Both the position numbers and the translations under genes were made by a program. The notes under the pieces were generated by a model, which worked only from the letters and a program-made list of their open reading frames with translations, had not been told where the DNA came from and did no database searches. From Bacteroidia bacterium (lineage in GTDB: Bacteria; Bacteroidota; Bacteroidia; Cytophagales; Cyclobacteriaceae), in assembly GCA_030425425.1 (NCBI GenBank), contig JAUIAO010000036.1:1-62470 (forward strand): a stretch of DNA of 62,470 bases, read 5' to 3'. Position 1 is the stretch's first letter. Each line of letters opens with the position of its first letter. This document shows, one piece after another, positions 42 through 31,377 of this stretch.

Positions 42-953
42 ATGAAATTACTAGAAACACTCAAGCAAAAAGTACTCGTCTCAGACGGTGCTATGGGTAC
101 GCAATTGATGGCAGCCGGATTGCCATCAGGGGCATGTGGTGATCTCTGGAACATCACGGAACCCGAAAAAGTCATCGCGATACAGAAGCGATATGTAGAT
201 GCTGGTTCGGATTGTTTGATTACCAACACTTTCGGAGCAAATGGATTATCGCTTGCCAGACATGGTCATGAAGATAAGATTCTGGATATCAATAAAGCAG
301 CAGTCAAAATTGCACGAGAAGCTTTCGGTGACAAACCAGGATTTGTGCTGGGGGATGTGGGACCGGTAGGGCAGGTGTTGGAACCATTTGGCGATCTGTC
401 TGTGGATCGTTTGCGAGATGCTGTTTCCAGACAAATCGAAGGTTTGATGGAAGGTGAACCAGATGCGATTATTGTGGAAACGCAATCTGACCTGGCTGAA
501 ACGATTGTCGGGATAGAAGCAGCAAAGAGCTTAGGCGCTCCGTGCATCATCGCGTCTATGTCGTACAATTGTGGGCCTGATGGCTGTAGTTTCATGACCA
601 TGATGGGCGTGTCACCAGAAGATGCAGCTGCGCAGTTAGCTGAGGCTGGAGCGGATATCATTGCGATGAATTGTGGCACAGGCGTAGATATGGCGCTGGC
701 TAAAAAGGTGATCGAAGCATATAAAGGCCATGCCGACAAATTTTTCATGGCTCAGCCAAATGCAGGAATCCCAACGATCAAAGACGGTAAAACGATCTAC
801 GAACAAACACCAGAAAAGATGGCTGATTCTGTTTTGGACTTACTCCGGGCTGGGGCCAATATTGTGGGTGGCTGCTGTGGTTCTACTCCGGATCATATTC
901 GAGCTATCCGCGCCAAAGTGGATGAATGGAATTTGAGTTTAGTTAGTGGTTGA
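42..953 (+). CDS. Homocysteine S-methyltransferase family protein
   Basis: This 303-residue protein is a single homocysteine-binding barrel like the N-terminal module of MetH. Visible motifs are DGAMGTQL (15-22), NTFGAN (62-67), GDVGP (104-108), NCGTG (210-214) and GGCCGS (276-281). Cys211, Cys278 and Cys279 are in the places of the three zinc ligands that activate homocysteine thiolate. It has no folate, B12 or activation domain, so it must receive the methyl group from a separate donor. The corrinoid protein at 6967-7632 is the obvious candidate (inference). It converges on the UroD-type methyltransferase 700 bases away. Expected product: methionine in the cytoplasm. The family call is secure; the donor is not. 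S-methylmethionine-dependent activity is the alternative. Confidence 0.88.
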   Translation: MKLLETLKQKVLVSDGAMGTQLMAAGLPSGACGDLWNITEPEKVIAIQKRYVDAGSDCLITNTFGANGLSLARHGHEDKILDINKAAVKIAREAFGDKPGFVLGDVGPVGQVLEPFGDLSVDRLRDAVSRQIEGLMEGEPDAIIVETQSDLAETIVGIEAAKSLGAPCIIASMSYNCGPDGCSFMTMMGVSPEDAAAQLAEAGADIIAMNCGTGVDMALAKKVIEAYKGHADKFFMAQPNAGIPTIKDGKTIYEQTPEKMADSVLDLLRAGANIVGGCCGSTPDHIRAIRAKVDEWNLSLVSG

Positions 954-1635
954 TGGGTGGTTATTTGATGCTGAAGAAATCAATACTTTTAATGAAGTAA
1001 CAGTAATGATAAGCAGAAGCTTTTGATAATTTTTTTTTGCTCTAAATCAAGTTTATTATTAGTCAATAAGTTCTAAACCGTTGTGCATAGTTCCTGTACT
1101 ATCAATAGGAATATTGGTTCTTAATTTTGAAGCATTAAGAATTTCATTAAAGCTTCTGGTAAAAGATAATTTGTTAGTCCCATGAATCTCCATATTGAGA
1201 AACAAAGAGTCATTTTGAAGGTAAAAGTTGAATTTAAAGTCGTCAATCATTCTGCTATTGGTTTTAAAGTATCGGAATTGATAATATAAACTGTCCTTGT
1301 ATGTAATTAAAAAGTCATTCTCTCCATGGTCGGTAGTTATCATTTTTAATTTACGACCGTCAAAAAACATAGACTTGCTATCATCTTCAAACATTATAAG
1401 GTCATTGTGCCTGCTGATTGTAAAAAATCCTTGATAGATTTTTAAATTTTCTATGTCAAGAGGGTCTTTCATGTTGACCTCATATGTGTTTCCGTTTATT
1501 ATCCCAATATTTTTGAGATAGATAAATCCAAATACAAGACTTATAGCAATTAAGATTAATGTTGTTTTATGTGAAGTCATGTATTTTTTTATAGACTGTT
1601 ATATAAAAGACCGAATACTGATCACCAACCACTAA
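943..1635. repeat. 10-bp inverted repeat around a small hypothetical gene
   Basis: TTAGTGGTTG at 943-952 recurs as its exact reverse complement CAACCACTAA at 1626-1635. The left arm overlaps the end of the homocysteine methyltransferase gene and the right arm is just past the end of the UroD-type gene. The arms enclose the 173-residue hypothetical gene. This could mark an inserted gene, or be chance in simple GGTT-rich sequence. Confidence 0.4.
1059..1580 (-). CDS. Hypothetical membrane-anchored protein
   Basis: This 173-residue protein begins with one hydrophobic segment (about residues 6-27), then a polar, beta-rich region without a motif I recognise. It could be tethered to the inner membrane or exported with an uncleaved signal. 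The DNA is clearly more AT-rich than the methyltransferase genes on either side, and the gene lies between two 10-bp inverted repeat arms. Both facts suggest a passenger gene dropped between two functionally related genes. No function is assigned. Confidence 0.6.
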   Translation of the reverse strand: MTSHKTTLILIAISLVFGFIYLKNIGIINGNTYEVNMKDPLDIENLKIYQGFFTISRHNDLIMFEDDSKSMFFDGRKLKMITTDHGENDFLITYKDSLYYQFRYFKTNSRMIDDFKFNFYLQNDSLFLNMEIHGTNKLSFTRSFNEILNASKLRTNIPIDSTGTMHNGLELID

Positions 1636-1642
1636 CCACCGA

Positions 1643-2707
1643 TTACCGAAACTCCTCTACAATCTTCAAAGCATTATCCACATCCTTTTCTGACTGGAAA
1701 TGCATCAGAATGTTTAGGCCTTCAGCCCCCACAGCATCGAGGAGCGGTTTGAGTTCGTTGGTCTCTACCCAGCAAGGCATGATCCCTTTGCCAGCATCGA
1801 GGATTTTTTGATAAAGGTCAAACCAACGAGGATTTCCACCTTGCGGTTCGCCGATACCTGGTGTCCACTGCACGCAGTTGATCTCGTTGATTTCCAGAAT
1901 GGCATCCAAATGGCGCATGGCATCCACACCATCGAGGTGATAGAGTGAATAATCCAGAAACTGAGCCTGCTGACGAATGTATGGCTGTACGAATCGGCGA
2001 TAATCATCTTCAGAGATCATTAGCGAAATATCAGATTGTAACTTGGCCACCTTGCCTGGTCCCCAAATAGAGAAATAGCAAAATGCCATTTCGCCATCTT
2101 CATTGATGATTTCATAGATGTCATCAAACACCTCAAACCAAATGTCATTTACTTTTTGGAGCTGCTTTTCCAGTACTTCCGGCTGCATGATGGTGTCCAT
2201 CAGCACCTCCTGTGTGCCCCGAAGACTGGCCAGTGTATCGAGGCCTTCTATCAAATCAGGGCAACCTACATAATACTGACCTTGCGAAAGTTTTTTACAT
2301 TCTTTCATCAGATCGATGTGGGTTTGGTACCATTTGTTGGATTTGTCCAGGACAATATCACCTGCAAAATTTTCAATATGCTTTGCCCAGATATTTTCTG
2401 CATCTCCGCTTAATTCCGCTCCCAGAATGGCGCACAGTGAGCCAGGGCCCAGATGCGTATTGGCCACAGGAGGGATGTCTGCTCTCAGACAACTACGAGA
2501 TAAATCATAATGGATTTTCTGCGCTCGCCAAACGGGATCAAACCAATATTGGTTAAAATCTGCATGCGGAGGTGGTGGAGTTGCTACGGCATGTGGAGCT
2601 CCTTCTTTGGGGAAGTGTTCCCACATACTGACTACAAGTCCTTTCCCTTGCCACCAGTCCAGATAGTTTTTTTTCGATTCTTCCCAATTTTGCTTCCAGG
2701 TGTTCAT
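1643..2707 (-). CDS. UroD-fold (MtaA/MtbA-like) methyltransferase
   Basis: This 354-residue protein belongs to the uroporphyrinogen decarboxylase superfamily, which includes zinc-dependent methyltransferases that move methyl groups to or from corrinoid proteins. His257 (YHLDG), Cys278 (NCVQW) and Cys312 (MPCWVE) are spaced along the C-terminal half where such enzymes keep their zinc ligands; I propose them as ligands. True UroD would sit with heme genes, which are absent here. Neighbours are a homocysteine methyltransferase, a corrinoid protein and its activase, so a role as substrate:corrinoid methyltransferase is likely. The methyl donor is unknown; methylated sugars or methanol from pectin fit the context. 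No signal peptide, so cytoplasmic. Confidence 0.75.
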   Translation of the reverse strand: MNTWKQNWEESKKNYLDWWQGKGLVVSMWEHFPKEGAPHAVATPPPPHADFNQYWFDPVWRAQKIHYDLSRSCLRADIPPVANTHLGPGSLCAILGAELSGDAENIWAKHIENFAGDIVLDKSNKWYQTHIDLMKECKKLSQGQYYVGCPDLIEGLDTLASLRGTQEVLMDTIMQPEVLEKQLQKVNDIWFEVFDDIYEIINEDGEMAFCYFSIWGPGKVAKLQSDISLMISEDDYRRFVQPYIRQQAQFLDYSLYHLDGVDAMRHLDAILEINEINCVQWTPGIGEPQGGNPRWFDLYQKILDAGKGIMPCWVETNELKPLLDAVGAEGLNILMHFQSEKDVDNALKIVEEFR

Positions 2708-2806
2708 TTGCTAGCATTTTGAATATAGTTCATTCATTGATGTGAGATCAAAGAATGCAACGCAAATTATTGGTTTTCAATAGTTTGAACCAATGATATA
2801 TATCAT

Positions 2807-3823
2807 CTATTCCGTGACACGAATCACGACTTTTCCCGTAGATCTTCTGGATTCTATTAGAGCGTGAGCCTCTGGAATTTGATCGAAAGAAAAGGTATGA
2901 CCAACGATTGGCTTGATTTGGTGTTTCTGGCAAAATGCCAAAAGATCAGACCATTCGTTTATCGTGATGGAAGGATTGCTAGTGAGGTATCCAATATGCG
3001 TAGCGAGGATCCCATAAGAACCAATCGCCATATTTTGCACATTTACCTTAGGTGCATCTCTCCATGCTGGCCAGTAGGTGAGGGGATTCCATTTTTTGAG
3101 CGGAATACTGGCATATCCTGCAACCACCATCCTGCCGAAAGGATTCAACAATGCCAGACTCTTTTTGAAAACCTCACCGCCGATCATTTCCAAAACCACA
3201 TCCATACCTTCAGAATTAGACTTGATGTAATCATAAAAGTCATCCGTTCGGTAATTGATCGGGTGATCAACTCCCAGTCTATTGAGAAGTTCGAGTTTCG
3301 CAGGTTCACTTGCAGTACCAAAGACTTCAGAACCGACTGCTTTGGCTATTTGAACAGCTGCTGTTCCCACTCCTCCGGCAGCTGCTTGTATCAGTACTTT
3401 TTCTTCCTTTTGAATTTTACCAAGTTTGATCAGCGCAACCCAGGCGGTCATGTAATTGACCAGAAATGCGGCATTTTCATCTTCACTGAATTCTGCTGGA
3501 GCGTGAAATACCAAATGCTGAGGTGTGACCATAAATTCTGCATATGCACCGAATTGTGCTCCTGCAATGACAGGATCGCCAGGTTCGAATTCTGAGACAT
3601 CAGCACCCACTTCCATTACCTCTCCATAAGCTTCCATTCCTGGAATGTAGGGACGTTTCGGTGCCCAGCTGTATTGACCTCTTCTGGATAGCACTTCAGC
3701 ATAGTTGATACCAATTCGTTTTACCTTGATTTTAACCTCATTTGCTTTTGGTGTGGGGTCTGGAGTTTCACTAATTTTCAAGACATTTGGTTTGCCTACT
3801 TTCGATAAAATATATGCTTTCAT
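2807..3823 (-). CDS. Zinc-independent medium-chain dehydrogenase (quinone oxidoreductase type)
   Basis: This 338-residue protein has the GroES-like N-terminal domain (to about 120) and a Rossmann NADPH-binding domain with AAAGGVGTAAVQIAK near 147-161. The catalytic-zinc cysteine and histidine of alcohol dehydrogenases are not in place, which fits the quinone oxidoreductase/enoyl reductase branch. It probably reduces an activated double bond or quinone with NADPH in the cytoplasm. It lies 99 bases upstream of the UroD-type gene on the same strand and may be co-transcribed, but nothing in the sequence links it to the methyl-transfer chemistry. Confidence 0.8.
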   Translation of the reverse strand: MKAYILSKVGKPNVLKISETPDPTPKANEVKIKVKRIGINYAEVLSRRGQYSWAPKRPYIPGMEAYGEVMEVGADVSEFEPGDPVIAGAQFGAYAEFMVTPQHLVFHAPAEFSEDENAAFLVNYMTAWVALIKLGKIQKEEKVLIQAAAGGVGTAAVQIAKAVGSEVFGTASEPAKLELLNRLGVDHPINYRTDDFYDYIKSNSEGMDVVLEMIGGEVFKKSLALLNPFGRMVVAGYASIPLKKWNPLTYWPAWRDAPKVNVQNMAIGSYGILATHIGYLTSNPSITINEWSDLLAFCQKHQIKPIVGHTFSFDQIPEAHALIESRRSTGKVVIRVTE

Positions 3824-4100
3824 TGTAGATTCATGATATGAGCTTGAAAAGCTAGTTGGTCTATGGTTAGGTTCATTAAAATAGAGATTCGGATTTTTTT
3901 TAGTTTAATTAAGATGTAAAATTCGAGGTAGATTAATTGATTTCATATTTATGTTGATTGAAAGTGATTACCAAATGTTTATTGCAGATAAACTGGATGA
4001 CATTATCTAATCGGAATATTAATTATATTTTTTAGTGGTAAATAACTTTTTTGACCATATTGCAAATACATTTTTTGACCAATCCACTGTTTTAAAAAAC

Positions 4101-5387
4101 ATGATAAATCTAACCCCACTTAAGCCAGTAATAATCGGAATTTTCTTTTTATTCAATTTTCAAGGTTTTGCACAAATCATATTCGATCCCGGATATCTGA
4201 TTATGACTGATGGCGAGCGTATTGAATGTTTGATTAGGAACGCTGAATGGCGTAATAATCCATCAAAAATTCAATATAAATTACCGGGAACAGAAGAGGT
4301 AAAAATAGCGGAACCTAGAGATATCATTGAGTTTGGTATTACCAACAAATCTCGCTACCGAGTTGGTCAATTCAAAATTGACAGATCTTCTATAGATATC
4401 AATCATCTGAGTTTAACTAAAGAGCCAGAATTCTCACAAGAATACCTGATGCTGAAATATTTAGTATCAGGAAAAACTAGTCTTTTGGTCTATCAGGATG
4501 AAACCTTCCTGAGGTTCTTTTATGAGACTGAAGACTCTAATGTAGAACAGTTGATCTATAAACTATACTATAACCACGAGGGTAATGAAAACGAAAATTA
4601 CTCTTCTTACTGGACCAAAGAGAACAATAGCTTTCGACAGCAATTGAAAGCTTATGTCAATTGCGGATATGGAGATAATCCATTGAACAATATGGTCGGT
4701 GACTTGGATTACAAGGCTTCGGAGCTAAGGACTTATTTTAATAAGTATAATGAATGCTCAAATTCTGAATACATTGATTTTCAAAAGCTTAACAAACGAA
4801 ATCCGCTGAATTTAAGTTTGAGACCTGGAATAGGAATGACAAAATTCACATATTCAGAGCAAGGTAATGATGTGAGAAACATCGATTCATCTCCTAGTTG
4901 GCAAGGAGGTTTAGAGTTTGAGTTTCTGTTGCCTTTTAGTAAGGATAGATGGGCCATTTTGTTTGAGCCAACTTATTTCATTTTCGAAGGCCAAAAATCG
5001 GAGAGCCACCAACTTATTTCAACAACCTACGAAACAAAAATAAAAGCCAGGTATGAAGGAATAGATGCCAGTCTTGGTTTGAGATATTACTATGAATTAA
5101 ATGATCAATCCAAATTATTTGCAAATGGATCATTTATAGTAGGTTTTCCTATGGGCGAATCTTATGCGCTACCATCTGGTGGATACCCATCGAAAACTGG
5201 AACTTACTTTACTTTTGATCGGAGCTATACTATCAAGGCAGGTATTGGTTATAAGCATGCCAATAGATTGAGCGCAGAACTGTCTTATGTTTTTAAGCGA
5301 GATATGTTATTGAAATATTTGATTCTTGAAGGTTATTTGTCAACCGTCTCATTGACATTGGGATATACCTTGATTCAAAGTAATTAA
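4101..5387 (+). CDS. Outer-membrane beta-barrel protein, function unknown
   Basis: I place the start at 4101 because it gives a clean signal peptide ending at GFAQ. The reading frame is open upstream to 4035, but that extension is polar and would bury the signal. The mature protein (428 residues with signal) has an N-terminal half of a type common in Bacteroidota secreted proteins (a segment around 'DGERIECLIRNAEW') and a C-terminal half with alternating aromatic and polar strands ending in a tyrosine-rich strand, like small outer-membrane barrels. It is transcribed convergently with the corrinoid activase gene and is probably unrelated to it. Confidence 0.65.
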   Translation: MINLTPLKPVIIGIFFLFNFQGFAQIIFDPGYLIMTDGERIECLIRNAEWRNNPSKIQYKLPGTEEVKIAEPRDIIEFGITNKSRYRVGQFKIDRSSIDINHLSLTKEPEFSQEYLMLKYLVSGKTSLLVYQDETFLRFFYETEDSNVEQLIYKLYYNHEGNENENYSSYWTKENNSFRQQLKAYVNCGYGDNPLNNMVGDLDYKASELRTYFNKYNECSNSEYIDFQKLNKRNPLNLSLRPGIGMTKFTYSEQGNDVRNIDSSPSWQGGLEFEFLLPFSKDRWAILFEPTYFIFEGQKSESHQLISTTYETKIKARYEGIDASLGLRYYYELNDQSKLFANGSFIVGFPMGESYALPSGGYPSKTGTYFTFDRSYTIKAGIGYKHANRLSAELSYVFKRDMLLKYLILEGYLSTVSLTLGYTLIQSN

Positions 5388-5418
5388 TTGGAGCGTTTGT
5401 GAAATCTGTATGGTATGA

Positions 5419-6939
5419 TTATCCCATTAAGAACCCATCTCCTAAAAACATATTCATGGCAAATTCCAGTGCAAATGACTCTTCATCAGATAGCTCAATG
5501 TTGATCATGCGCTGCTGATAGATCTTCATTCGATCATGGAATTTTTCTGATTTTACCGTAAGGGTTGCACCTGTTCCGGACGCATTTCCAATTGGGATGA
5601 TTTTGCCTTCAAAATCAGGGTGGAGCAATCCAATATCAATTGCACTTTTTGTATTTAGATAGTTCCCAAAGCCACCGGCAAGGAAAACTGCATCTACTTC
5701 TTTTGCAGCAACTCCTGCACGCTTCAGTAAGATGTTAACCCCAGCGGCAATGGCAGATTTTGCCAATTGTAGCTCTCGAATATCCTTTTGGATTAGTTCA
5801 ATAGGTTCTCCAGTACCACTTTGTTCCGAATTGACTATCTCAAAGGAGTTTTCCAACAGACCCTCCGAGTCGATTATTTTTTCATTTACCAGATAAGCTA
5901 CCAGATCGATCAATCCAGAACCACAGATTCCCATTGGGGCTATATTCCCAATGACCGTATATCCTGATTCTGTATAAGAAGAAATTGCTCCATCTACGGC
6001 AAGCATTCCATGCTCGATTCGTGCTCCTTCGAAAGCTGGTCCTGCCGGAGCGGCACAACAATACACATTTTCTGGAGTGATCAAAACCAATTCGCCATTG
6101 GTGCCAATATCCATCAATAGCCATGTTTTGACATTATCAGGCGGAGCTATTGAAGCTAAACCGGCCAATACATCTGCACCGACATAAGCAGACGCTCCCG
6201 GCAGTGTTTCCACTAAGGCCTCAGGGTTACAATGCAGGTTATAAATTGAGGCATTTATCACTTGCCTATCAATAAATCGCGGTTTGAATGGTACCAGGGC
6301 AATAGGCAATGGATCAACGTTCATTAGCAAATGCAACATCGTAGTATTTCCTGCAATAGAAATCTTCACCAAGTCGTTGACATTCAGTTGTTGCGTGGAG
6401 ATGAAATGATCGAGCTGGTGATTTATTGTTTCAATAATGATGTTCTGAAGTGTGAGAAGGTTATCCGGTGATTTAGAAGCGTAATCGATTCTTGTAATTA
6501 CATCCGCACCGAATCGGGCCTGTGGGTTGGGAATCGCTTTCGTCTTCACCACTCCACCATCGATTAAATCAATTAAGTAAAATACAATGCTGGTAGTGCC
6601 GAGATCAACCGCAACTCCAAAAGGGGTTTTAGATAGTGCTATACAAGTGCCAGGTTCCAAGGGAAGTTTGAAACTGTATTGATGTTGTTTGATAAGGATT
6701 TGTGATTCCTTATGTTCGGGCAAAATTACCGTCAGGTTTTCGTCGATCACTTGCCTGCAAGCAGCAACTCTGCCAATATCCTTAATATCTACCTGACATT
6801 TTCCGCAAGTGCCTTTTCCACCGCATGGTGCATAAACATCAAAGTCATTTTCTCGAAGTACATAAAGCAAATTCTGTTGATCCTGAGTTTCGATCTCAGT
6901 TAGTTTTCCATTGATATGTACTTCGAGTTTGAATGACAT
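5419..6939 (-). CDS. Corrinoid reductive activase (RACo/RamA-like, DUF4445)
   Basis: This 506-residue protein has an N-terminal [2Fe-2S] ferredoxin domain with Cys39, Cys44, Cys47 and Cys61 (C-x4-C-x2-C spacing). An ASKHA-type ATPase follows, with a phosphate loop DLGTTS near 111 and DIGTNGE near 275. Such proteins use ATP hydrolysis to drive electron transfer to an accidentally oxidised cob(II)alamin cofactor, restoring the methyl-accepting cob(I) state of a corrinoid methyltransferase system. It is the last gene of a minus-strand operon, 27 bases after the corrinoid protein gene, which is almost certainly its target. This gene is the strongest evidence that the cluster is a working corrinoid methyl-transfer system rather than scattered homologues. 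Confidence 0.88.
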   Translation of the reverse strand: MSFKLEVHINGKLTEIETQDQQNLLYVLRENDFDVYAPCGGKGTCGKCQVDIKDIGRVAACRQVIDENLTVILPEHKESQILIKQHQYSFKLPLEPGTCIALSKTPFGVAVDLGTTSIVFYLIDLIDGGVVKTKAIPNPQARFGADVITRIDYASKSPDNLLTLQNIIIETINHQLDHFISTQQLNVNDLVKISIAGNTTMLHLLMNVDPLPIALVPFKPRFIDRQVINASIYNLHCNPEALVETLPGASAYVGADVLAGLASIAPPDNVKTWLLMDIGTNGELVLITPENVYCCAAPAGPAFEGARIEHGMLAVDGAISSYTESGYTVIGNIAPMGICGSGLIDLVAYLVNEKIIDSEGLLENSFEIVNSEQSGTGEPIELIQKDIRELQLAKSAIAAGVNILLKRAGVAAKEVDAVFLAGGFGNYLNTKSAIDIGLLHPDFEGKIIPIGNASGTGATLTVKSEKFHDRMKIYQQRMINIELSDEESFALEFAMNMFLGDGFLMG

Positions 6940-6966
6940 TGAACCTGGAACATTGAATTTGAAACC

Positions 6967-7632
6967 CTAAAAAACACTATTCAGATAATTCACCGCTGCC
7001 TTAGGGTTTGGAGAGTAATTGTCTGCTCCGATTTCCTGACAAAACGCTTCATTAACCGGTGCACCACCTACCAATATTTTAATCTCAGGATTGATTTGCC
7101 GAATGGCTTCAATGATTGGTTTCATGTTGACCATGGTGGTAGTGAGCAAAGCGGATAAACCGACAGCCTGAATATCGTTTTGCTCGATTGTTTCCACGAA
7201 TCTTTCCGTTTTCACATCCACGCCCAGGTCTATCACTTCCCACCCGGCACCTTCTATCATCATTTTCACCAGATTTTTTCCAATATCATGAAGGTCGCCA
7301 AATACTGTTCCGATCAGGAAAGTCCCTTTTTTCTTCATCGCACCAGATTTGAAAAATGGCTTGATGTGTTCCATGCCAGCACTCATAGATTTGGCAGACA
7401 TGAGCATCTGCGGTACAAAGAGTTTTTGTTCTGCGAATTTCTGCCCGACAAAATCCATGGCAGGGATCATTGCCTGATTGACGATTGTTTCCGGTTCTAT
7501 TCCTTCATCCAGCGCTTGTTTTGTCAGTTCATCCGCTCCGATCTGGTTCTTCATGTTGGGAGGGTAGGGTGAGGCTTGATTGATCTTTCCAGATTCTATG
7601 CTTTGCTGGAGTTTTTTTAAAGTGTCGCTCAT
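6967..7632 (-). CDS. Corrinoid (B12-binding) methyl-carrier protein
   Basis: This 221-residue protein has the usual two-part build of MtaC/MtbC-type carriers. A helical cap domain covers about 1-95, and a Rossmann-like B12-binding domain covers 104-221. The signature D113-L-H115-D-I-G118 gives His115 as the lower cobalt ligand. SALLTT (160-165) and VGGAP (188-192) complete the nucleotide-loop contacts. It shuttles methyl groups between a substrate-specific methyltransferase and an acceptor methyltransferase. It is flanked in the same operon by a MetH-activation-like protein (4-base gap) and the ATP-dependent activase. The UroD-type and homocysteine methyltransferases nearby are likely partners (inference). 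Confidence 0.92.
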   Translation of the reverse strand: MSDTLKKLQQSIESGKINQASPYPPNMKNQIGADELTKQALDEGIEPETIVNQAMIPAMDFVGQKFAEQKLFVPQMLMSAKSMSAGMEHIKPFFKSGAMKKKGTFLIGTVFGDLHDIGKNLVKMMIEGAGWEVIDLGVDVKTERFVETIEQNDIQAVGLSALLTTTMVNMKPIIEAIRQINPEIKILVGGAPVNEAFCQEIGADNYSPNPKAAVNYLNSVF

Positions 7633-7636
7633 GATG

Positions 7637-8401
7637 TTAAGGGTTTGATGTTGCTAAGTTTTGATAATCAGCAATCTGAGTTTTTCTAAAAAATTTATAA
7701 TTACATGTCGGTTGATAATCACAGTATTTACAATCGTCTTTTTCGTATTTCACCGTTGCTCCAAGACCAATGATTGCACTCAGTGATTTTGTTGGTTGCA
7801 TCATCAGAGATTCCGTGAGGTGAATATCACAAAAATTATCGGGAAGTAAAGAAAAGAGTTTTTGCTGGTCATCCAGAGGCCATTCGCAGTGGCCCGGACT
7901 GTAGCGATTGGTAAAATTTAATCCAGAATTTGGAAGGATTTGATGATGAAGCTTGTTAGCCAATTTTTCAACAGCAAGTGTTCCAATTGTTTCTGCAATG
8001 TGGGATTCAATGTAGTTCTCAGTCTTCATCAATTGCTCTGGGAGGCTAGAAAGTTCTGAACCAGCAGTACATATAAAAATCGCGATTACTTGGGCTCCAG
8101 ATAGCTTCTGTTTGATCGTTTTCCCTACCGCTAATGAAACCGAATCAACAGTTATCCAATCATTCGTTCCTAAATCATCAACAGGGAAAATAATCATTCC
8201 ACACTCAAGACCATCAGCGCTTTTTAGGTCACTTAGTATGGCTTCAATCATAGGCTTAAATCCATCAATTTCTTTTCTGGACAAATTCATTGCTCTACCC
8301 ACTTCTTGTGAAGTGATTTGCAAGTCTTTGAACTGAAATTGATGGTGTACTTTCACCGTAAATTGATTTACATTAGTTGTTACCTGCTCACCGGCAGCCA
8401 A
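7637..8401 (-). CDS. Stand-alone MetH activation-domain-like protein
   Basis: This 254-residue protein resembles the C-terminal activation domain of cobalamin-dependent methionine synthase, which binds AdoMet and remethylates oxidised B12. The stretch RYSPGHCEWP near 166-175 matches the family's R-x-x-PGY-x-x-x-P signature. The C-terminus has a cysteine cluster C-x2-C-x6-C (CKYCDYQPTC) not found in MetH, which could hold a metal or iron-sulfur cluster. The start overlaps the end of the GH127 gene by 22 bases, indicating translational coupling; the next methionine (residue 38) would remove the overlap but shorten the fold. Probably a second repair or support factor for the corrinoid protein encoded next to it. 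Confidence 0.75.
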   Translation of the reverse strand: MAAGEQVTTNVNQFTVKVHHQFQFKDLQITSQEVGRAMNLSRKEIDGFKPMIEAILSDLKSADGLECGMIIFPVDDLGTNDWITVDSVSLAVGKTIKQKLSGAQVIAIFICTAGSELSSLPEQLMKTENYIESHIAETIGTLAVEKLANKLHHQILPNSGLNFTNRYSPGHCEWPLDDQQKLFSLLPDNFCDIHLTESLMMQPTKSLSAIIGLGATVKYEKDDCKYCDYQPTCNYKFFRKTQIADYQNLATSNP

Positions 8402-10443
8402 ATCGCCATGTCAGCTTCTTCACGATTGGCCCATGCAAAGTGTGGTATCAAGGTTAGGTTGATGTCTCTCATTCCTTTGCTGGCTTCTCTGTAAAGTTGG
8501 TTGGATTTACTACGCTGGATTATTTTGGCTTTTCCCTGAAGAGCTGTGACTTCAAAGCCCGCGATTTCCATAGTCTCAGTTCTCAACTCTGTATCGATAG
8601 GAAGCAATACATCTGAAACTTGCTGGCCTTCCTCCAAATCCACACCTTCTACACAATAAACCAATGGTCCTCGCTTTACTGCCACCATGTTTTGAGTGGA
8701 TTCTACCAGCGGATTTGCTTCGATGAGTTTGGCTGGCATGTCTAGTTTGAGGATTATTTCTTCTCCAATTTTAAAGTTTCTAATGAGCGTTTGATACCCA
8801 TTTATTTGTGGCATTACTAAAGGTTTTCCATTCAAAATAATTCTTGCTTTATCGCACCACTCAGGAATTCTAAAATTCAGACTTATTTTAGAATCTGGAG
8901 CTTTATCGATCTTAATTTTGATTGTGCCGTCCCATGGATAATTCGTGGTTTGAGTCAAAGCAATTTCTTCCTCACCGATCTCAGTATTGATGGAGCTACT
9001 TGCGTACATGTTGAACCAAAGACCATTTTCCGTTTTGCTATAAAGATAATTAGGCACTTCCATAATGGTACGAATGGTGTTAGGTGGGCAGCAATTGGAA
9101 TAACTAATGTATGGATCACGAACATTTGGCCAGCGCATATTGAATGGTAAGTCCATCTGGTGGCTCAAAGGGTTGGTGTAGAAGTACCCCGGGTCATTCA
9201 GGTTGGCACCTGAGAGCACACTATTGTAAAGCGTATTTTCTACCATTCCAGCGTATTTTGTCTCGGCAGTAGTTTGAAACATTCTATAATTCCAAAGTAC
9301 ATTCCCAATATTGGCGCAAGTCTCATTATGTGCTCCAGCATTTGGTAGCTGAAACTCCCGACCGTAGGCCTGGTGTACTTGCTGAATTTCTGCTGGATTG
9401 TACGAAGTTCCATTCGGTGAGACTCCATCGTATAATGCTCCACAACCGCCTGTTATGTACAGTTTAGTGGTCACCAAGTCATCCCAGATTTTGTCCAAAG
9501 CAGCCTTCAGTGTTTCATCACCCGTTTCCGAATATACATCCGTCACACCTGCATAGAGATAATTGGCGCGAACGGCATGGCCAACGGCTTTTTCTTGCTC
9601 ACGGAATGGAATTCTGTCCTGATTATGATCGGTTCCATTTTCCACCAATCCTCGGATATCGATAAACTTTTTCGCCAGATCCAGATATCGTTGATCGCCT
9701 GTAGTTCGGTACATTTCTACCACTCCCATGTAATGAGAAGGACAAATCGCATTCAAGGCCATTTTTTCTGGAAAACGCTCGGTATATGTGTATAGATAAT
9801 CGGCCGCTTTTTTCGCCAGTTCCATCAGGTCAGTTTTGCCAGTCGCTTTGTAATGAACCGTGGCAGCTGTCATCAGGTGACCCATATTGTAACTTTCAAA
9901 ATCCATGCGATCCCTAAACTCAACAGCCGTTTCCGGATTGTTTCTGGTTTGGATCATCACAGGCGTATGAATATATCCATCAGCCCTCTGTGAAGCCTTG
10001 ATCAATGGAATCACCTCATCAATCATCTGATTGAATTTCTCATCGCCAGAGATGGCATAAGCCATACTGGAGGCCTCCATCAATTTGTAAAAATCTCCAT
10101 CATGGAAAGGTGCTCCGGCATGTTTTCCGGGCTTTTTACCCGCTGCGATTTTGAAGTTTTCCAAAGCATGACTCACTGCAGAATCTCCATAAATAGACCA
10201 CATCTCAGGTAGCATTTTGCTGAGTGCTACGTCCACACGCTCTTTCCAGAAACCATCATTGAGCTGTACATCAGTAAAGGGAACAGGTTGTAGTTTGGCA
10301 AAAGGGCTGGAAGTGGTATTTACCAGACTTTTGTTAGTCGTCAAATTAGTAACATCCAAAGGCTCTGATTCCTGAATTTCAGGAGTTGGTGTCTGACAAC
10401 TAATTACGGCGGTAAGGATGAAGATAGGAATAAGGTATTTCAT
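8380..10443 (-). CDS. GH127 lipoprotein (beta-L-arabinofuranosidase-type)
   Basis: This 687-residue lipoprotein has an SPII signal with lipid-attachment Cys16. It has the DUF1680/GH127 layout, and all four residues of the catalytic zinc-thiolate site can be placed: Glu374 and Cys376 in HNETCANIG, and Cys451-Cys452 in SNCCPP. Characterised GH127 enzymes cleave beta-L-arabinofuranosides; one rhamnogalacturonan II member releases aceric acid. It probably faces the periplasm or cell surface. It is the first gene of a four-gene operon with the MetH-activation-like protein, the corrinoid protein and the activase, which ties glycan breakdown to methyl transfer. Exact sugar specificity cannot be read from sequence. 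Confidence 0.88.
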   Translation of the reverse strand: MKYLIPIFILTAVISCQTPTPEIQESEPLDVTNLTTNKSLVNTTSSPFAKLQPVPFTDVQLNDGFWKERVDVALSKMLPEMWSIYGDSAVSHALENFKIAAGKKPGKHAGAPFHDGDFYKLMEASSMAYAISGDEKFNQMIDEVIPLIKASQRADGYIHTPVMIQTRNNPETAVEFRDRMDFESYNMGHLMTAATVHYKATGKTDLMELAKKAADYLYTYTERFPEKMALNAICPSHYMGVVEMYRTTGDQRYLDLAKKFIDIRGLVENGTDHNQDRIPFREQEKAVGHAVRANYLYAGVTDVYSETGDETLKAALDKIWDDLVTTKLYITGGCGALYDGVSPNGTSYNPAEIQQVHQAYGREFQLPNAGAHNETCANIGNVLWNYRMFQTTAETKYAGMVENTLYNSVLSGANLNDPGYFYTNPLSHQMDLPFNMRWPNVRDPYISYSNCCPPNTIRTIMEVPNYLYSKTENGLWFNMYASSSINTEIGEEEIALTQTTNYPWDGTIKIKIDKAPDSKISLNFRIPEWCDKARIILNGKPLVMPQINGYQTLIRNFKIGEEIILKLDMPAKLIEANPLVESTQNMVAVKRGPLVYCVEGVDLEEGQQVSDVLLPIDTELRTETMEIAGFEVTALQGKAKIIQRSKSNQLYREASKGMRDINLTLIPHFAWANREEADMAIWLPVSR

Positions 10444-13055: not shown

Positions 13056-14300
13056 ATGGATAGGATCAGAGCAACTTACCTGGTGGAGACACCTCATGAT
13101 TTGGAAAAAGCGGCGGCAGTGTTGGCAGGAGAGCAGTCGAGCGGCACGTTCGTCTCTGTGCCAGGCGAAACTGACGCACTAAAGAAACGCTTTGCAGCAC
13201 GGGTGGATGGAGTAGAACATCTGGAAACGGTAAGTCAGCCAAGCATGCCGGGAGATCATTTAAAAGCTGGGGAATACCATCGTGGAAAAGTAACTGTTTC
13301 CTGGTCGGTTGAGAATTTTGAGGTGAATGTGCCTGTATTGATTTCCACACTTCAGGGGAATTTGTATGAACTGAGGCAGTTCACCGGGCTGAAACTGGAT
13401 GATTTCACCTTGCCGAATATTTACAAAGATCATTTTGCTGGACCAACATTTGGCGCCTCTGGAACCAAAAAATTGGTGGACGTCCCCAAAGAGCGGCCTA
13501 TGATCGGTACGATCATCAAGCCGAGTGTTGGGCTATCTCCAAAAGATACGGCAGCCATTGTAAAGGAACTGGTGGAAGCCGGAATTGACTTTATCAAAGA
13601 TGATGAGTTGATGGGCTCTACGGCCAATTCACCGTTTCAGAAGCGTGTAGATGCGATTATGAAAGTGATCAATGATCATGCGGATAAGACAGGCAAGAAA
13701 GTGATGTATGCTTTCAATATCACCGAGGACCTGCCTACTATGAAAGCCAATTATAAGAAAGTAGTGAAAGCCGGTGGATCATGCGCAATGATCAGTATCA
13801 ACAGTGTAGGTTGGGCTGCAGTGCGTGAGATGTGTAAGTTTGGTGATTTGTCCATTCATGCTCATCGCAATGGCTGGGGAATGATGAATAGGCACCCTTT
13901 ACTAGGAATTAATTTTCCTGCTTACGCTAAACTTTGGAGAATGGCAGGAGTAGATCAACTGCATGTCAATGGGATCAGGAATAAGTTTTGGGAATCTGAT
14001 GAATCAGTTGTTCGCTCAATTAAATCTTGTCAGAAACCGTTTTTGAATGATCGAGGTATTTTACCGGTAGTATCCTCCGGGCAGTGGGGCGGTCAGGCTT
14101 TTGATACTTACAAATTGACACAAACGACAGACCTGCTTTACATGGCGGGCGGTGGCATTATGGCTCATCCATCAGGGCCTGCAGGCGGAGTGAGGGCTTT
14201 GCAACAGGCATGGGAAGGAGCTGTAGAGGGAATTTCTTTGGAAGATGCCGCGAAGAGATACAAAGAATTTGGCGAGTCGGTTGAGAAGTTTGGCGAGTGA
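13056..14300 (+). CDS. RuBisCO-like protein, candidate 3-oxo-isoapionate-4-phosphate enzyme
   Basis: This 414-residue protein has the full RuBisCO large-subunit fold. The Mg2+/carbamate triad is kept as Lys181-x-Asp183-Glu184 (FIKDDE). Lys155 in TIIKPSVGL, His270-Arg271, His303, Lys310 of the mobile loop, Ser341 and the glycine phosphate loop GGGI (365-368) are also kept. The lysine two residues after the first active-site lysine is Ser157, so it is not a CO2-fixing RuBisCO. It overlaps a DUF1537 kinase gene by four bases. In known D-apiose pathways, a DUF1537 kinase makes 3-oxo-isoapionate 4-phosphate, and a RuBisCO-like protein then decarboxylates it or splits it by transcarboxylation and hydrolysis. 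Which of the two reactions applies here cannot be told. Confidence 0.88.
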   Translation: MDRIRATYLVETPHDLEKAAAVLAGEQSSGTFVSVPGETDALKKRFAARVDGVEHLETVSQPSMPGDHLKAGEYHRGKVTVSWSVENFEVNVPVLISTLQGNLYELRQFTGLKLDDFTLPNIYKDHFAGPTFGASGTKKLVDVPKERPMIGTIIKPSVGLSPKDTAAIVKELVEAGIDFIKDDELMGSTANSPFQKRVDAIMKVINDHADKTGKKVMYAFNITEDLPTMKANYKKVVKAGGSCAMISINSVGWAAVREMCKFGDLSIHAHRNGWGMMNRHPLLGINFPAYAKLWRMAGVDQLHVNGIRNKFWESDESVVRSIKSCQKPFLNDRGILPVVSSGQWGGQAFDTYKLTQTTDLLYMAGGGIMAHPSGPAGGVRALQQAWEGAVEGISLEDAAKRYKEFGESVEKFGE

Positions 14301-15676: not shown

Positions 15677-15714
15677 GGTCTGACCAATTCTATAGAACTA
15701 AATAAACCTAAACA

Positions 15715-17632: not shown

Positions 17633-20122
17633 ATGAAGTTTCTTATCCCTTTGCTCATTTTGATGATAATGGTTTCTTGTCAGCAACAGGAGCCTACTAA
17701 ACCGAATTATCTGAAACTTTGGTATGATAAACCTGCTTCTGTTTGGGATGAAGCTTTGCCAATAGGAAATGGTAGAATGGGTGCAATGATTTTTGGAAAT
17801 CCGTCAAAGGAACACGTGCAACTCAATGAAGAGACGATTTGGGCAGGTGAACCAGGAAACAATCTTCCTGAAGGTTTTAAAGACATTTTGCCAGAGGCAA
17901 GACGGTTGATTTTGGAAGGAGAATACAAGGAAGCCGAGAAGCTAATTTTCACCAAATTTCCCCGCCATGCTCATGAGAACAACAACTATGGTATGCCATA
18001 CCAGACAATGGGTGACCTGTGGCTGGAGATTCCCGGTCATGATCTCGCTACTAACTATTACCGAGAGCTGGATATCAGCAATGCCACGAGTGCTGTAACC
18101 TATGAAGTGGATGGCGTGAAATTTCGTAGAGAGTATTTTGCCAGCACACCAGATCAGATTCTAACATTGAAACTTTCCTCTGATCAAAAAGGGCAGATCA
18201 ATTTCTCTATGGGCGTGAGTACACCACATTCAGTTTCGAATCTGCAAGTTGAAAATGGAATGATAATCCTATCCGGAAAAGGGGAGACCGTGGAAAATAA
18301 GGAAGGGGAAATTGAGTTCGATTCAAGGTTTAAACCAATTGTATCAGGAGGAACAATCACGGAAACAGATTCAAGTTTAATGATTTCGGGTGCTGATGAA
18401 GTGACGATTTTTATATCTATTGGAACCAATTTCAACAATTACAAAGACATTACTGGAAATGCTTCTAAAAGATCTCAGAAGGCTCTGGATGAAGCACAGA
18501 ATAAACTTTACGATCAAATAAAGCACGATCATATTGCTCATTATCAGAAGTACTTCAATCGTGTCAATCTGGATCTGGGAATTACTGATTCTGTCAAGAA
18601 TCCCGCTAATCAGCGTGTAATTGATTTTGCTAAAGCCAATGATCCTCAGCTGGTTTCGCTTTATTTTCAATTTGGGAGATATCTGTTGATTTCCTCATCT
18701 CAGCCAGGCACACAGCCAGCCAATCTTCAGGGCATTTGGAATTATCAGCTCAAACCTTCCTGGGACAGCAAATACACGGTCAATATCAACACTGAAATGA
18801 ACTATTGGCCAGCGGAAGTGACCAATCTTTCAGAAATGCATGAGCCACTTTTTGCGATGCTCAAGGATTTGTCAGAAACGGGGAAGGAAGCTGCGCAGGA
18901 AATGTATGGTGCACGAGGATGGGTGATGCATCACAACACAGATGTGTGGAGAATGACCGGTCCGGTGGATGGAGCGTTCTACGGCATGTGGCCAATGGGC
19001 GGAGCGTGGTTGACACAACATATTTGGCAGCATTATTTGTTTACCGGAGATCAGGAGTTTTTACAGGAATATTATCCAATCATGAAAGGTGTGGCTACCT
19101 ACTATGTGGATGTTTTACAGCAAGAACCCAAAAACGGCTGGTTAGTAGTGGTGCCCTCTATGTCGCCAGAAAACCGACATCCTTACGGAACATCTTTAGC
19201 ACCCGGAAATACCATGGACAATCAGTTGGTTTTTGACGTTTTCAATAATTTGATTCAGGCTTCAGAAATTCTGGGTTTAGACCAAGAATTTGCTGATACT
19301 GTACAGATGAAATTGGAAAATCTTCCTTCAATGCAAATTGGGAAAATCAGTCAGCTGCAGGAGTGGATGGAGGATTGGGATAGCAAAGGAAATAAGCATC
19401 GCCATGTTTCTCATCTGTATGGTTTGTACCCTTCAAACCAGATGTCACCATTCACTCAGCCTAAGTTGTTGGAAGCTGCGAAAAACTCTTTGGAATATCG
19501 CGGAGATCAATCTACGGGCTGGTCTATGGGATGGAAAGTAAATCTTTGGGCACGACTGCTGGATGGAAACCGGGCCTATAAATTGATTGAAGAACAGCTT
19601 TCACCAGCACCTTTGGATAGAAAAGGAGAAAAAGGTGGTACATATCCTAATCTTTTTGATGCGCATCCGCCATTTCAGATTGATGGTAATTTTGGGTGTA
19701 CTGCGGGAATTGCAGAAATGTTGGTTCAGAGTCATGATGGAGCGATTCATTTGTTACCAGCTTTACCAGATCTCTGGAGCTCTGGATCTGTTTCAGGATT
19801 GAAAGCAAGAGGTGGATTTACCATTGATATGACATGGGAGAACAAAAAAATCTCTGAATTAAAAATTCATTCATCTATTGGCGGAAATTGCCGATTACGA
19901 ATACCGAATGAGTTGAAAGGAGATGAGGAGTTGACCTTAGTTGAGTCAGGTGTTCCAAACCAGAACCCTTTTTATCAAAAAGCTCAGATCAAAAAGCCTT
20001 TAGTGAACGATGAATCAGTGTTTGAAGGGTTAGATTTTGATTCGGGTATTTTAGTAGAATTTCGAGCAGAGGAAAGTAAGGAGTATAAGTTTTTTAGTCC
20101 GCATTATTCATCAGAAATGTAG
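17633..20122 (+). CDS. GH95 alpha-L-fucosidase/alpha-L-galactosidase lipoprotein
   Basis: This 829-residue lipoprotein has lipid-attachment Cys16 and opens with the GH95 N-terminal beta domain ([11 protein letters not shown]). The (alpha/alpha)6 catalytic barrel follows. The base-activating asparagine pair is in [12 protein letters not shown] (about 383-385), the acid region is around LQEWMEDWD, and the conserved Asp is in QIDGNFG (about 684). GH95 enzymes invert alpha-1,2-L-fucosides or alpha-L-galactosides; in rhamnogalacturonan II breakdown a GH95 removes L-galactose. It starts six bases after the symporter gene, so a periplasmic or surface glycosidase is co-expressed with the sugar-acid pathway. 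Confidence 0.9.
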
Positions 20123-23028: not shown

Positions 23029-23055
23029 CAATTCACAAATTCCAAAACACAAAAG

Positions 23056-23883: not shown

Positions 23884-23901
23884 ATCACAAATCTCGATAT
23901 A

Positions 23902-23950
23902 CAAATCACAATCTCTGGTTTAGCTTGACACAAATAAAAATTGTGATTTG
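23902..23950 (+). other. 11-bp inverted repeat between transketolase subunits
   Basis: CAAATCACAAT at 23902-23912 pairs perfectly with ATTGTGATTTG at 23940-23950 across 27 bases. It fills much of the unusually long 95-base gap inside an otherwise compact operon. No U-run follows, so it is not a typical terminator; RNA processing, stability or an insertion scar are possible. Confidence 0.55.
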
Positions 23951-23978
23951 GAATTTGAATATTGGAATTTAACCAACT

Positions 23979-24950: not shown

Positions 24951-24975
24951 TTGGTATTGTTATTAGAAATTTAAG

Positions 24976-27333: not shown

Positions 27334-27375
27334 AAATATACGAAATATTTCTTAAAACAGGGCGAATATATTCGC
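27334..27375 (-). promoter_or_regulatory. Promoter and palindromic operators of the RES/Xre module
   Basis: On the minus strand the -7 box TATATTTG (27341-27334) ends three bases before the antitoxin ATG. Just upstream are two palindromes, GAAATATTTC (27343-27352) and the perfect 14-mer GCGAATATATTCGC (27362-27375). The second overlaps the last base of the GH28 stop codon. They are the likely binding sites for the Xre protein. Confidence 0.65.
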
Positions 27376-28913
27376 TATTTAAATATTACTTCCTCCGAAT
27401 CTTCAGCTTTAAAACTCAAATCTTTGCCATTCAATTCAAAAATCACGTGATCAAATATTACTTGCTTTGAGCCTAATAGAGCTATTGTACTGTCAGCAGA
27501 TTCAATTCTAGAATTTTTGATAGAGACATTTTCTGCATCATTGATGATCATGAGTTTTTCACTTTTCACATTAAGATTATCCATCACCAGATTGGTCATG
27601 GGAGATTCTGGGATGCCAAGAATTTTTAAAAAATGTGTAGAACGCTCTATGATAAGATTACTCATTTTGATATTTCGATAAAAAGGGGTGAGGTCATTGA
27701 CTTCTCGTTTTGGCATTCTTTCCGCCAGCTCACCAACATAAGCCGGAGTGCCGAGCATGTCCCATTTGATGGCGGTGTATTCTAGGTTCATTCGGATACG
27801 ATCATAATAGAGGTTTTCTCCACCACCACCACGTGGCCTCCGTGTCTTGAATCGGATACCTACTCCCGTTCCTTTAAAAACACAGTCATGAACATATAGA
27901 TTTCGGATCACACCGGCTGTTTCGCTACCGCAGGTTATTCCTCCATGCCCTTGTTTTGCCAGACAATACCTTACAACCACATTTTCTGTAGGCCGATTTA
28001 CTTTTAATCCATCTTCTCCTCGGCCAGCCTTCATGGTAAAGCAATCATCTCCGGTACTCAGCGTGCAATACTCGATCAATACGTTTCTGGAAGACTCCAC
28101 ATCAATGCCGTCACCTCGTGGAATTCCTTCAGAGTTTACCAATACCCCACGAATGATTACATTTTCGCAATATGTAGGTACAATGTTCCAAAATGCTGTG
28201 TTTTCCAATGAAACACCTTCGATCAGCACATTTTTGCAGTTAATTGGAGAGATAAACTTCGGAGGAAAAACCCAATCTTCTTCCGATCCATCGTGAATTC
28301 TTTCTTTTGCAGGCAAGCTCAAATCAACCAATGATTCGATGGGTTTCATATAGCTTCGTTCTTTGATTTCTCCACCGTATGGGCCGATTAGTTTTCCATT
28401 TCCGGTAATGGCGATATTCTCGGCATTGTTGGCATAAATACACGCACCAAGAGACATCACCTCTAGACTTTCGACTCTGTTGAAAACGGCTGGCTGATAG
28501 TCTTTTACCTCATTGCTGAAGCGGATCTCCGCACCGCTTTCAAAATGAAGGTTTACGTTGCTTTTCAATTCTATTCGTCCTGATTTCCATTGACCCTTCG
28601 GGATCAATACCGTGCCACCACCTTCGCTGCTAAGTTGATCAATGGCTGAATTGATAATTGCCGTGATCAGAACAGATGTGTCAGCAACCAGGTTGGCAAT
28701 GTTGATTTTATTTTCTGGGAATGTTGGTTTTTGAAAAGCCGGAAAATCAAATGGTGCGATGACAGCAGCTATTGAATCCGGCATTACTTTCGCACCCACT
28801 TGGCTTGCAGTAGGAATGGAGCTCAGTTTCTCCATGTCTGGTCCCACTGATTGATAATTACCACATGCAAAAAGGTAACTCATCAATACCCACATCAAAA
28901 TTTGGATTCTCAT
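27375..28913 (-). CDS. GH28 polygalacturonase-family lipoprotein
   Basis: The start at 28913 is chosen because it gives an SPII signal with Cys17 (FACGN); the frame is open upstream but without signal character. It is a right-handed beta-helix protein with GH28 motifs GDDCFTMKAG, QGHGG and GIRFKTRR. The first motif is RGDGID in place of the usual NTDG, so one catalytic-site neighbour differs; the aspartates remain. Such variants often act on rhamnogalacturonan or on terminal galacturonic acid rather than plain homogalacturonan. It lies downstream of the DUF5703 protein and acetylesterase genes on the same strand, probably one operon. Confidence 0.88.
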   Translation of the reverse strand: MRIQILMWVLMSYLFACGNYQSVGPDMEKLSSIPTASQVGAKVMPDSIAAVIAPFDFPAFQKPTFPENKINIANLVADTSVLITAIINSAIDQLSSEGGGTVLIPKGQWKSGRIELKSNVNLHFESGAEIRFSNEVKDYQPAVFNRVESLEVMSLGACIYANNAENIAITGNGKLIGPYGGEIKERSYMKPIESLVDLSLPAKERIHDGSEEDWVFPPKFISPINCKNVLIEGVSLENTAFWNIVPTYCENVIIRGVLVNSEGIPRGDGIDVESSRNVLIEYCTLSTGDDCFTMKAGRGEDGLKVNRPTENVVVRYCLAKQGHGGITCGSETAGVIRNLYVHDCVFKGTGVGIRFKTRRPRGGGGENLYYDRIRMNLEYTAIKWDMLGTPAYVGELAERMPKREVNDLTPFYRNIKMSNLIIERSTHFLKILGIPESPMTNLVMDNLNVKSEKLMIINDAENVSIKNSRIESADSTIALLGSKQVIFDHVIFELNGKDLSFKAEDSEEVIFK

Positions 28914-29000
28914 TTGATATAATTTATTCAATTTAAAATTCGGTTTAGCCGTATTATTCCATAGCCTCTGTATTTCCAATAATCACATAGGCAACAATTG

Positions 29001-31340: not shown

Positions 31341-31362
31341 TTTAATTGACAGTTGGAGCTGC

Positions 31363-31377
31363 ATCCCTTTTCGGGAT
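31363..31377 (-). other. Short hairpin between acetylesterase and DUF5703 genes
   Basis: ATCCC (31363-31367) and GGGAT (31373-31377) form a 5-bp stem in the 39-base gap after the acetylesterase stop codon. It covers an alternative start of the DUF5703 gene. Too weak for a terminator; it may tune translation. Confidence 0.35.

Follow-up and report, generated by a model that had tools for sequence, protein, structure and literature searches.

Why would genes for B12-dependent methyl transfer lie among genes for the breakdown of pectin? The question is raised by contig JAUIAO010000036.1 of a Bacteroidia bacterium (Cyclobacteriaceae; assembly GCA_030425425.1), the whole of which (62,470 nt) was analysed and is called the window here. 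It touches on the bacterial handling of plant-glycan methyl ethers, a subject with few answers so far; a P450 route serves 6-O-methylgalactose in marine bacteria. We know of no corrinoid module in a rhamnogalacturonan-II (RG-II) locus, and no earlier report of B12-dependent sugar O-demethylation was found in the open-licence literature. We give a slightly better than even chance to the reading that the window encodes a B12-dependent sugar O-demethylation module, which would feed methionine synthesis and be built into an RG-II degradation locus. The relevant features are:

42..953, plus strand: homocysteine S-methyltransferase (HcyMT; PF02574, 217.5 bits)
1643..2707, minus strand: probable UroD-type methyltransferase, predicted sugar O-demethylase (MT1; UroD profile, 49.1 bits)
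2807..3823, minus strand: zinc-type dehydrogenase/quinone oxidoreductase, 99 bp upstream of the UroD-like gene (PF00107, PF08240)
5419..6939, minus strand: ATP-dependent corrinoid reductive activase, RamA/RACE type (PF14574, PF17651, PF00111, Fer2)
6967..7632, minus strand: corrinoid (B12) methyl-carrier protein (PF02310, PF02607)
7637..8401, minus strand: stand-alone MetH-activation-like protein (PF02965, 34.7 bits)
8380..10443, minus strand: GH127 aceric acid hydrolase (NF049879, 1004.6 bits, cut-off 950)
17633..20122, plus strand: GH95 glycosidase (PF22124, 608.1 bits)
27375..28979, minus strand: GH28, galacturonidase-like (PF00295, 81.2 bits; top NCBIfam match under cut-off)
29001..31364, minus strand: GH139 2-O-methyl-alpha-L-fucosidase (907.7 bits to 9HYQ)
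37253..39910, plus strand: alpha-D-galacturonidase (NF049878, 1339.3 bits, cut-off 1300)

The genes, their domains and motifs, the likely operon and the RG-II setting can be read from the DNA directly. The five methyl-transfer proteins and GH127 are all encoded by intact open frames in the range 42-10443, which bears out the original prediction of a five-gene corrinoid methyl-transfer set within 10 kb. An overlapping operon with GH127 had also been proposed; the shared operon is supported, but true overlap is confined to the GH127 and activation genes (22 bp), the next gaps being 4 and 27 bp. GH127 is the first gene, the activation gene starts inside it on the same strand, and together with the genes for the corrinoid protein and the activase they likely form one tight operon. 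A search for a simple promoter pattern upstream of four genes of the window found none. The UroD-like gene lies outside the operon, set apart by a 1.6-kb gap (with an opposite-strand gene within) and the dehydrogenase gene, HcyMT is on the other strand from the operon at the contig edge, and GH139 is about 19 kb away.

The corrinoid genes could be acquired passengers in the RG-II locus, with no functional link to it, which we regard as quite unlikely. In favour of this, the corrinoid gene occurs in 1/291 genomes of the order (the source genome only), and the gene arrangement of the window was not seen outside the source genome in the samples searched. GH139 is present in 10/148 order genomes, the nine others apparently being without the corrinoid gene, and RG-II use therefore seems not to require the corrinoid gene. 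These counts weigh against our preferred reading, as do the place of the UroD-like gene outside the operon and the distance to GH139. The start of the activation gene within GH127 on the same strand argues against passengers, and so does the GC content of the first 10 kb (0.36-0.42), which falls among the values found elsewhere in the window (0.35-0.45).

The window looks like an RG-II locus because GH127, GH139 and the galacturonidase point that way. Aceric acid is a sugar of RG-II chain B, and GH127 scores above the NF049879 "aceric acid hydrolase" equivalog cut-off (1004.6 against 950); such a hydrolase is presumably part of the RG-II degradome of Bacteroides thetaiotaomicron, and we take the alpha-D-galacturonidase at 37253..39910 to have a role in RG-II as well. 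Aligned to 9HYQ (with a manually counted offset of one), the GH139 protein keeps all nine active-site residues that were checked, i.e. Q411, N412, E561, W683, D723, N729 and the Trp triad W162/W403/W490; 9HYQ and 9HMB are GH139 structures, and the residue roles are those described in PMC12282258. The locus itself should thus release 2-O-methylfucose. The GH139 family of 2-O-methylfucosidases is shared with the B. thetaiotaomicron RG-II degradome (BT0984; PMC12282258), and words beginning with "demethyl" are absent from that paper.

The UroD-like protein has no Pfam or NCBIfam match. It scored 49.1 bits against a profile of 38 UroD-type proteins, which included homolog L057, itself found by the window protein, compared with 7.2 for the best of 2000 shuffles and 4.4 for the best of 353 other ORFs. 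Without L057 the score was 42.9 bits and also without the nearest UroD group (c15) 35.3 bits, with controls of at most 6.4 (shuffles) and 5.1 (other ORFs); across the profiles (35.3-49.1 bits) the match covers part of the protein, approximately residues 153-272. A single-sequence AlphaFold model had a pLDDT of 41 and gave no usable fold, and the five weak matches from a PDB phmmer search (cofilin, best E 0.084; PEX6) were judged to be chance. Queries with the window protein indicate a single copy in its own genome and a divergent sequence, with one match at 25% among 394 other genomes of the phylum; a scan of genome contigs with this single protein matched one stretch and gave 0 loci, a plasmid search gave no match, and the motif pattern had 0 matches in viral contigs.

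In the profile alignments H257-L-D259-G aligns with HxCG, Asp259 taking the position of the first Cys. O-type UroD methyltransferases are marked by carboxylate substitution in the metal site (Kountz and Balskus, PMC10418091), the rule being a carboxylate or non-ligand for one or both Cys of His-Cys-Cys, and such a change is found at one alignable position, Asp259. By this published rule, His-x-Asp for the S-type His-x-Cys suggests that oxygen-bound methyl groups are the substrate (PMC10418091). The divergence of the window protein counts against our preferred reading, and so does the HxCG kept in c15 and in X2, c6 and c2b, three further UroD groups with sugar genes nearby; the same rule would make all of these S-type.

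The type 1 mlp clusters described in PMC10418091 are similar in having UroD-type methyltransferases, a corrinoid protein and a RACE activase, with no folate methylase in the described clusters. They have at least two UroDs (at least Mlp2 and Mlp3), nearly always with His-Cys-Cys, and are assigned to methyl-sulfur/selenium compounds, whereas the source genome has one UroD-like protein, with His-x-Asp, and a type 1 mlp cluster was set aside on these grounds. The main text of that paper uses none of the terms "sugar", "glyco" and "polysaccharide". The UroD-superfamily O-demethylases of acetogens (OdmB/VdmB type) and CdmB, a zinc-independent protein of the UroD fold, likewise combine a UroD-type MT1 with a corrinoid protein and an ATP-dependent activase (PMC13222342). 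In those systems methyl groups are known to pass from aromatic ethers or chloromethane to tetrahydrofolate, in contrast to the glycan setting and PF02574 acceptor enzyme of the window. Since phenolic methyl ethers are the substrates of the corrinoid O-demethylases known from the UroD superfamily (PMC10418091, PMC13222342), the window enzyme might demethylate aromatic methyl ethers (ferulate, monolignols) that accompany plant cell walls, as in acetogens. We consider this very unlikely: the scan of window proteins turned up no aromatic-ring gene, RG-II is indicated by GH127, GH139 and the galacturonidase, and the X1 relatives (see below) lie with UxuA and alpha-glucuronidases.

Pectin degraders release methanol, and methanol from pectin methyl esters had been included among the predicted donors. 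This part of the prediction is disfavoured: the source genome (99.36% complete) has no MtaB (PF12176) match, and we know of no UroD-type methanol enzymes. Methanol was set aside as a highly improbable donor, and betaine or a quaternary amine was set aside since the same genome has no match to the MttB type (PF06253). MtgBCDE of marine bacteria resembles the window in the path proposed there, from a donor methyl group via a small corrinoid protein to a PF02574 homocysteine enzyme, and in RamA-type reactivation; its donor enzyme is of the MttB type and its donor glycine betaine (PMC12478193).

The corrinoid protein has both B12-binding domains and D-x-H-x-x-G at residue 113; the activase has the RACo middle and C-terminal domains and Fer2 (2Fe-2S), and is the only PF14574 match of the genome. 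The MetH-activation-like protein (start codon TTG; PDB match 1j6r, E 4.3e-7) is predicted to be a SAM-dependent reactivation partner, the SAM role being presumably carried over from MetH; its plasmid matches (8 records) were all below 60% identity, none covering 80%. HcyMT, the predicted acceptor enzyme making methionine, has Cys211, Cys278 and Cys279, which we take to have a zinc role, and its best in-sample homolog (about 55% identical) is at the G406 locus. The core methionine synthases MesA-D likewise need no folate to convert homocysteine to methionine, and the methyl group used by MesA-C probably comes from corrinoid proteins; MesA-D are MetE-like, whereas the window acceptor belongs to PF02574 (PMC7857596).

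In other Bacteroidota, 16/24 loci found by the activation gene have a UroD-labelled gene. One UroD clade, X1, is present in 10/395 genomes, and UxuA, GH115 or GH67 lies near it in 8/10 loci, compared with 0/19 cassette loci without X1 (counted by tblastn, the G421 cassette included). In the five X1 loci first seen these genes occurred in 3/5, or 4/5 counting GH10, where GH10 labels in distant loci were assigned with the shared secretion domain cut off and coverage limits applied. Such neighbours predict B12-dependent 4-O-methylglucuronate demethylation in X1 loci. The X1 clade, source of the strongest sugar link, differs from that of the window protein, and there is no X1 match in the window genome, which again counts against our preferred reading. 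The neighbourhood check that had been suggested found no cassette with GH127/GH139 elsewhere in the samples searched, while co-occurrence with glycan genes was seen in some relatives, chiefly in X1 loci outside the order. Some relatives seem to have the cassette in loci for glycans or sugars, the clearest being those for glucuronoxylan/glucuronate, and the linkage in the X1 loci also argues against passengers.

The same counts bear on a further explanation, namely a general folate-independent or accessory methionine synthase with a non-sugar donor (betaine, methylthio/methylseleno compounds or methyl-folate), placed in the RG-II locus by accident. HcyMT, the corrinoid protein and the activation protein resemble a split methionine synthase; the absence of UxuA/GH115/GH67 from all 19 non-X1 loci, only 3/19 of which have FucU, indicates that many cassettes have no sugar link by the markers used, and in G406 and G509 the cassette has a pterin-binding gene beside it. 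Pfam scans of 20 window proteins, however, gave no pterin-binding match, the genome has no match to MttB, and the coupling to GH127 and a metal motif other than His-x-Cys do not fit. A split MetH, separate from the window set, is on contig C59 of the same genome and could cover housekeeping methionine synthesis by itself, and a housekeeping role was set aside. We consider an accessory synthase rather unlikely.

Returning to sugar O-demethylation, substrate, reactions and sugar specificity are proposed as follows. GH139 would free the 2-O-methyl-L-fucose of chain B; a second candidate substrate is the 2-O-methyl-D-xylose found in chain A. In the cytoplasm the UroD-type protein would bind the methyl sugar and set its O-methyl group before the corrinoid protein's Co(I); the products would be the free sugar and methyl-Co(III), and the PF02574 enzyme would pass the methyl group to homocysteine to form methionine. 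Co(II) from accidental oxidation would be rescued by the ATP-dependent activase and/or the MetH-activation-like protein, the latter by reductive methylation with SAM. The predicted transfer of plant-glycan methyl groups via B12 to homocysteine gains independent, if partial, support from the 2-O-methylfucosidase in the window, the O-type change at one position and the glycan loci of relatives.

More tentatively, and at somewhat less than an even chance, Bacteroidota may in general remove O-methyl groups of plant-wall sugars by B12, with separate UroD-type enzymes for each sugar (RG-II 2-O-methylfucose/xylose in the window, xylan 4-O-methylglucuronate in X1 loci) and homocysteine as the acceptor, which would make glycan methyl ethers a source of methionine; other UroD clades, found with FucU and GH31, are perhaps part of this. 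4-O-methylglucuronate is an abundant methyl sugar of hardwood xylan. If true, testable enzymes for it would be at hand, and a few purified proteins would be enough to test the X1 prediction. The fate of plant-glycan methyl ethers would then be explained by a B12-dependent route that is reductive and oxygen-free, and the breakdown of fibre would be tied to the supply of B12 and methionine.

All the genes of the original prediction, in which a corrinoid methyl-transfer set within a glycan operon was to pass pectin methyl groups via B12 to methionine, were found intact in the window and are listed here with a dehydrogenase gene that lies among them:

42-953, plus strand, homocysteine methyltransferase, at the contig edge
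1643-2707, minus strand, UroD-like gene, 99 bp past the dehydrogenase gene
2807-3823, minus strand, dehydrogenase, downstream of the activase gene
5419-6939, minus strand, RamA/RACE-type activase
6967-7632, minus strand, corrinoid protein
7637-8401, minus strand, MetH-activation-like protein
8380-10443, minus strand, GH127

The GH127, activation, corrinoid and activase genes likely form one operon, since they lie on the same strand and follow each other with a 22-bp overlap and then gaps of 4 and 27 bp. The window is the entire contig C90, and the homocysteine methyltransferase gene thus lies at an assembly edge.

The locus looks made for rhamnogalacturonan II (RG-II). GH127, at 1004.6, exceeds the curated aceric acid hydrolase threshold of 950, and the protein at 37253-39910, at 1339.3, that of 1300 for alpha-D-galacturonidase; both activities belong to RG-II breakdown. 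GH95, GH28 and GH2 genes are also present. The gene at 29001-31364 is labelled DUF5703 in Pfam, which hides its function; it matches 9HYQ with 907.7 bits and is by this match a GH139. PMC12282258, the paper behind 9HYQ and 9HMB, deals with glycoside hydrolase family 139, namely BT0984 and a homolog; by its account GH139 targets the 2-O-methyl-L-fucose of RG-II chain B, and a Trp triad, present in slightly more than 40% of GH139 sequences, points to MeFuc targeting. A one-residue offset (counted by hand in the alignment) brings the numbering of 9HYQ into line with BT0984, and as the window GH139 keeps nine of nine checked residues, among them the triad W162, W403 and W490, the locus probably releases 2-O-methyl-L-fucose.

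At 13056-16377 lie a homolog of the RuBisCO-like OiaX (503.5 bits) and an OiaK-like kinase (397.4), both missing the cut-off of 700, together with an Asp/Glu racemase-like gene. Judged by sequence these are relatives of the 3-oxo-isoapionate enzymes, below equivalog cut-offs, and since aceric acid has a carboxyl on C3 they may serve its breakdown via a decarboxylating RuBisCO-like step. The genes at 21610-26451 encode an isomerase whose C-terminal domain is that of fucose isomerase, two transketolase-like halves (the second by eye) and a glycerol-kinase-like FGGY kinase; together they resemble the transketolase route for apiose (apulose), though another isomerase is used.

The genome carrying the window gave no match to MtaB or MttB, and the window activase is its sole PF14574 match. 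A split methionine synthase is encoded separately on contig C59, as a 335-aa PF02574 frame and an 887-aa B12-binding frame.

The UroD-like protein had no matches in Pfam or NCBIfam and no convincing match among PDB sequences, and structure prediction gave no usable fold. Against a profile of 38 UroD-type proteins from the loci retrieved in other Bacteroidota, of which seven or their representatives were confirmed as URO-D by Pfam and the rest labelled by similarity, it scores 49.1 bits, while the best shuffle reaches 7.2 (n=2000) and the best other ORF 4.4 (n=353). The profile includes the protein of locus L057, found using the window protein itself; leaving that protein out gives 42.9, 6.4 and 3.9 bits, and dropping the nearest group, c15, as well gives 35.3, 6.2 and 5.1. 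The profile alignments place His257-Leu-Asp259-Gly on the HxCG metal motif. According to Kountz and Balskus (PMC10418091), S-methyltransferases of the UroD superfamily have a His-Cys-Cys site, and in O-methyltransferases a carboxylate or non-ligand replaces one or both Cys. With Asp259 on the Cys position of HxCG, the UroD-like protein would by that rule be an O-type enzyme, the first Cys position being the one aligned, as the match ends near residue 272. Zinc is not required by every UroD-type enzyme, CdmB, of UroD fold, being active without it (PMC13222342).

The window UroD-like protein falls outside the UroD clade X1, and its best relatives in the sample are L057 and the c15 group (L046/L037). 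L057 is a distant homolog (25%) adjoined, by eye, by transketolase-like and dehydrogenase-like genes; no corrinoid gene was recognised in its neighbourhood. UroD clade c4 (L044, L045, L047, L048, L037) has HxDG like the window protein and lies beside the cassette of corrinoid and activation genes.

The window corrinoid gene (E <= 1e-35) and UroD-like gene (E <= 1e-10) were each found in one of 291 order genomes, the one carrying the window, and the UroD-like gene had one further match (25%) among 395 phylum genomes. Of 148 order genomes searched for GH139 (PF18961), 10 have it, this one included. Since the nine others, taken to be among the 291, appear to lack the corrinoid gene, we infer that RG-II use does not need the corrinoid module, assuming that both order searches cover one sample. 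The activation gene is present in 25 of the 395 phylum genomes, again with this one included, and the stretches retrieved around the other 24 hold a corrinoid gene (21/24), a homocysteine methyltransferase (16/24) and a UroD-labelled gene (16/24).

In L046 and L037 UroDs c6, c2b and c15 with FucU/RbsD and GH31 lie beside the corrinoid cassette, as do c6, c2b and FucU/RbsD in L051; these loci are perhaps another methyl-sugar type. HxCG is retained in c15, c6, c2b and X2, so that the O-type rule gives no support for a sugar demethylase role there. L056 and L075 hold a divergent X1-like UroD (32%), a RACE activase and a pterin-binding protein, which suggests that some species pass methyl to folate, besides or instead of homocysteine.

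In locus L043 (genome G611), GH115-like and GH43-like genes precede the cassette and UxuA lies behind it; its UroD, X1, was found in 10 of 395 genomes. Glucuronate catabolism uses UxuA, its mannonate dehydratase, and the alpha-glucuronidases GH115 and GH67 attack (4-O-methyl)glucuronoxylan. Pfam confirmed GH115, GH43, GH10, GH67, GH88, URO-D and UxuA on representatives, from which neighbours were counted by tblastn. UxuA, GH115 or GH67 lay on the retrieved stretch in 8/10 X1 loci versus 0/19 cassette loci without X1 (UxuA 6/10 versus 0/19, GH115/GH67 5/10 versus 0/19). The Fisher value of 1e-5 for this contrast overstates the case, because the ten X1 genomes include three of one genus, stretch length varies between 3.4 and 40 kb, the genomes of three of the 19 control loci have X1 at another site, and X1 was picked when five of its ten loci were already known. 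Among the five fresh loci, three have UxuA, GH115 or GH67, and four when GH10 is counted; that of G481 has none of these genes. Corrinoid and homocysteine genes share the stretch with X1 in 7/10 loci. Because X1 mostly lies near UxuA, GH115 or GH67, we read these loci as predicted to carry out B12-dependent demethylation of 4-O-methylglucuronate. X1 proteins have neither HxCG nor HxDG; a second UroD, the HxCG-bearing X2 (50% or more identical), accompanies X1 in 4/10 loci (G611, G340, G471, G654).

Among 14 genomes searched for an activase (that of the window, the ten with X1, G402, G547 and G380), a RACE type was found in five: that of the window, G304, G406, G509 and G481. The nine without a RACE match all carry the activation gene, whose MetH-activation-like product is there the obvious candidate; it would rescue Co(II) by SAM-dependent reductive methylation. 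The window carries both.

For glycine betaine, PMC12478193 proposes that marine bacteria pass the donor methyl through a corrinoid protein to a PF02574 enzyme, and PMC7857596 describes folate-independent methionine synthases. No title on B12-dependent sugar demethylation stood among those listed by searches of open-licence PMC papers, a scope that makes this weak evidence. Overall, the module is a well-supported prediction of corrinoid methyl transfer, a known kind of system, here directed at the methyl groups of plant sugars.
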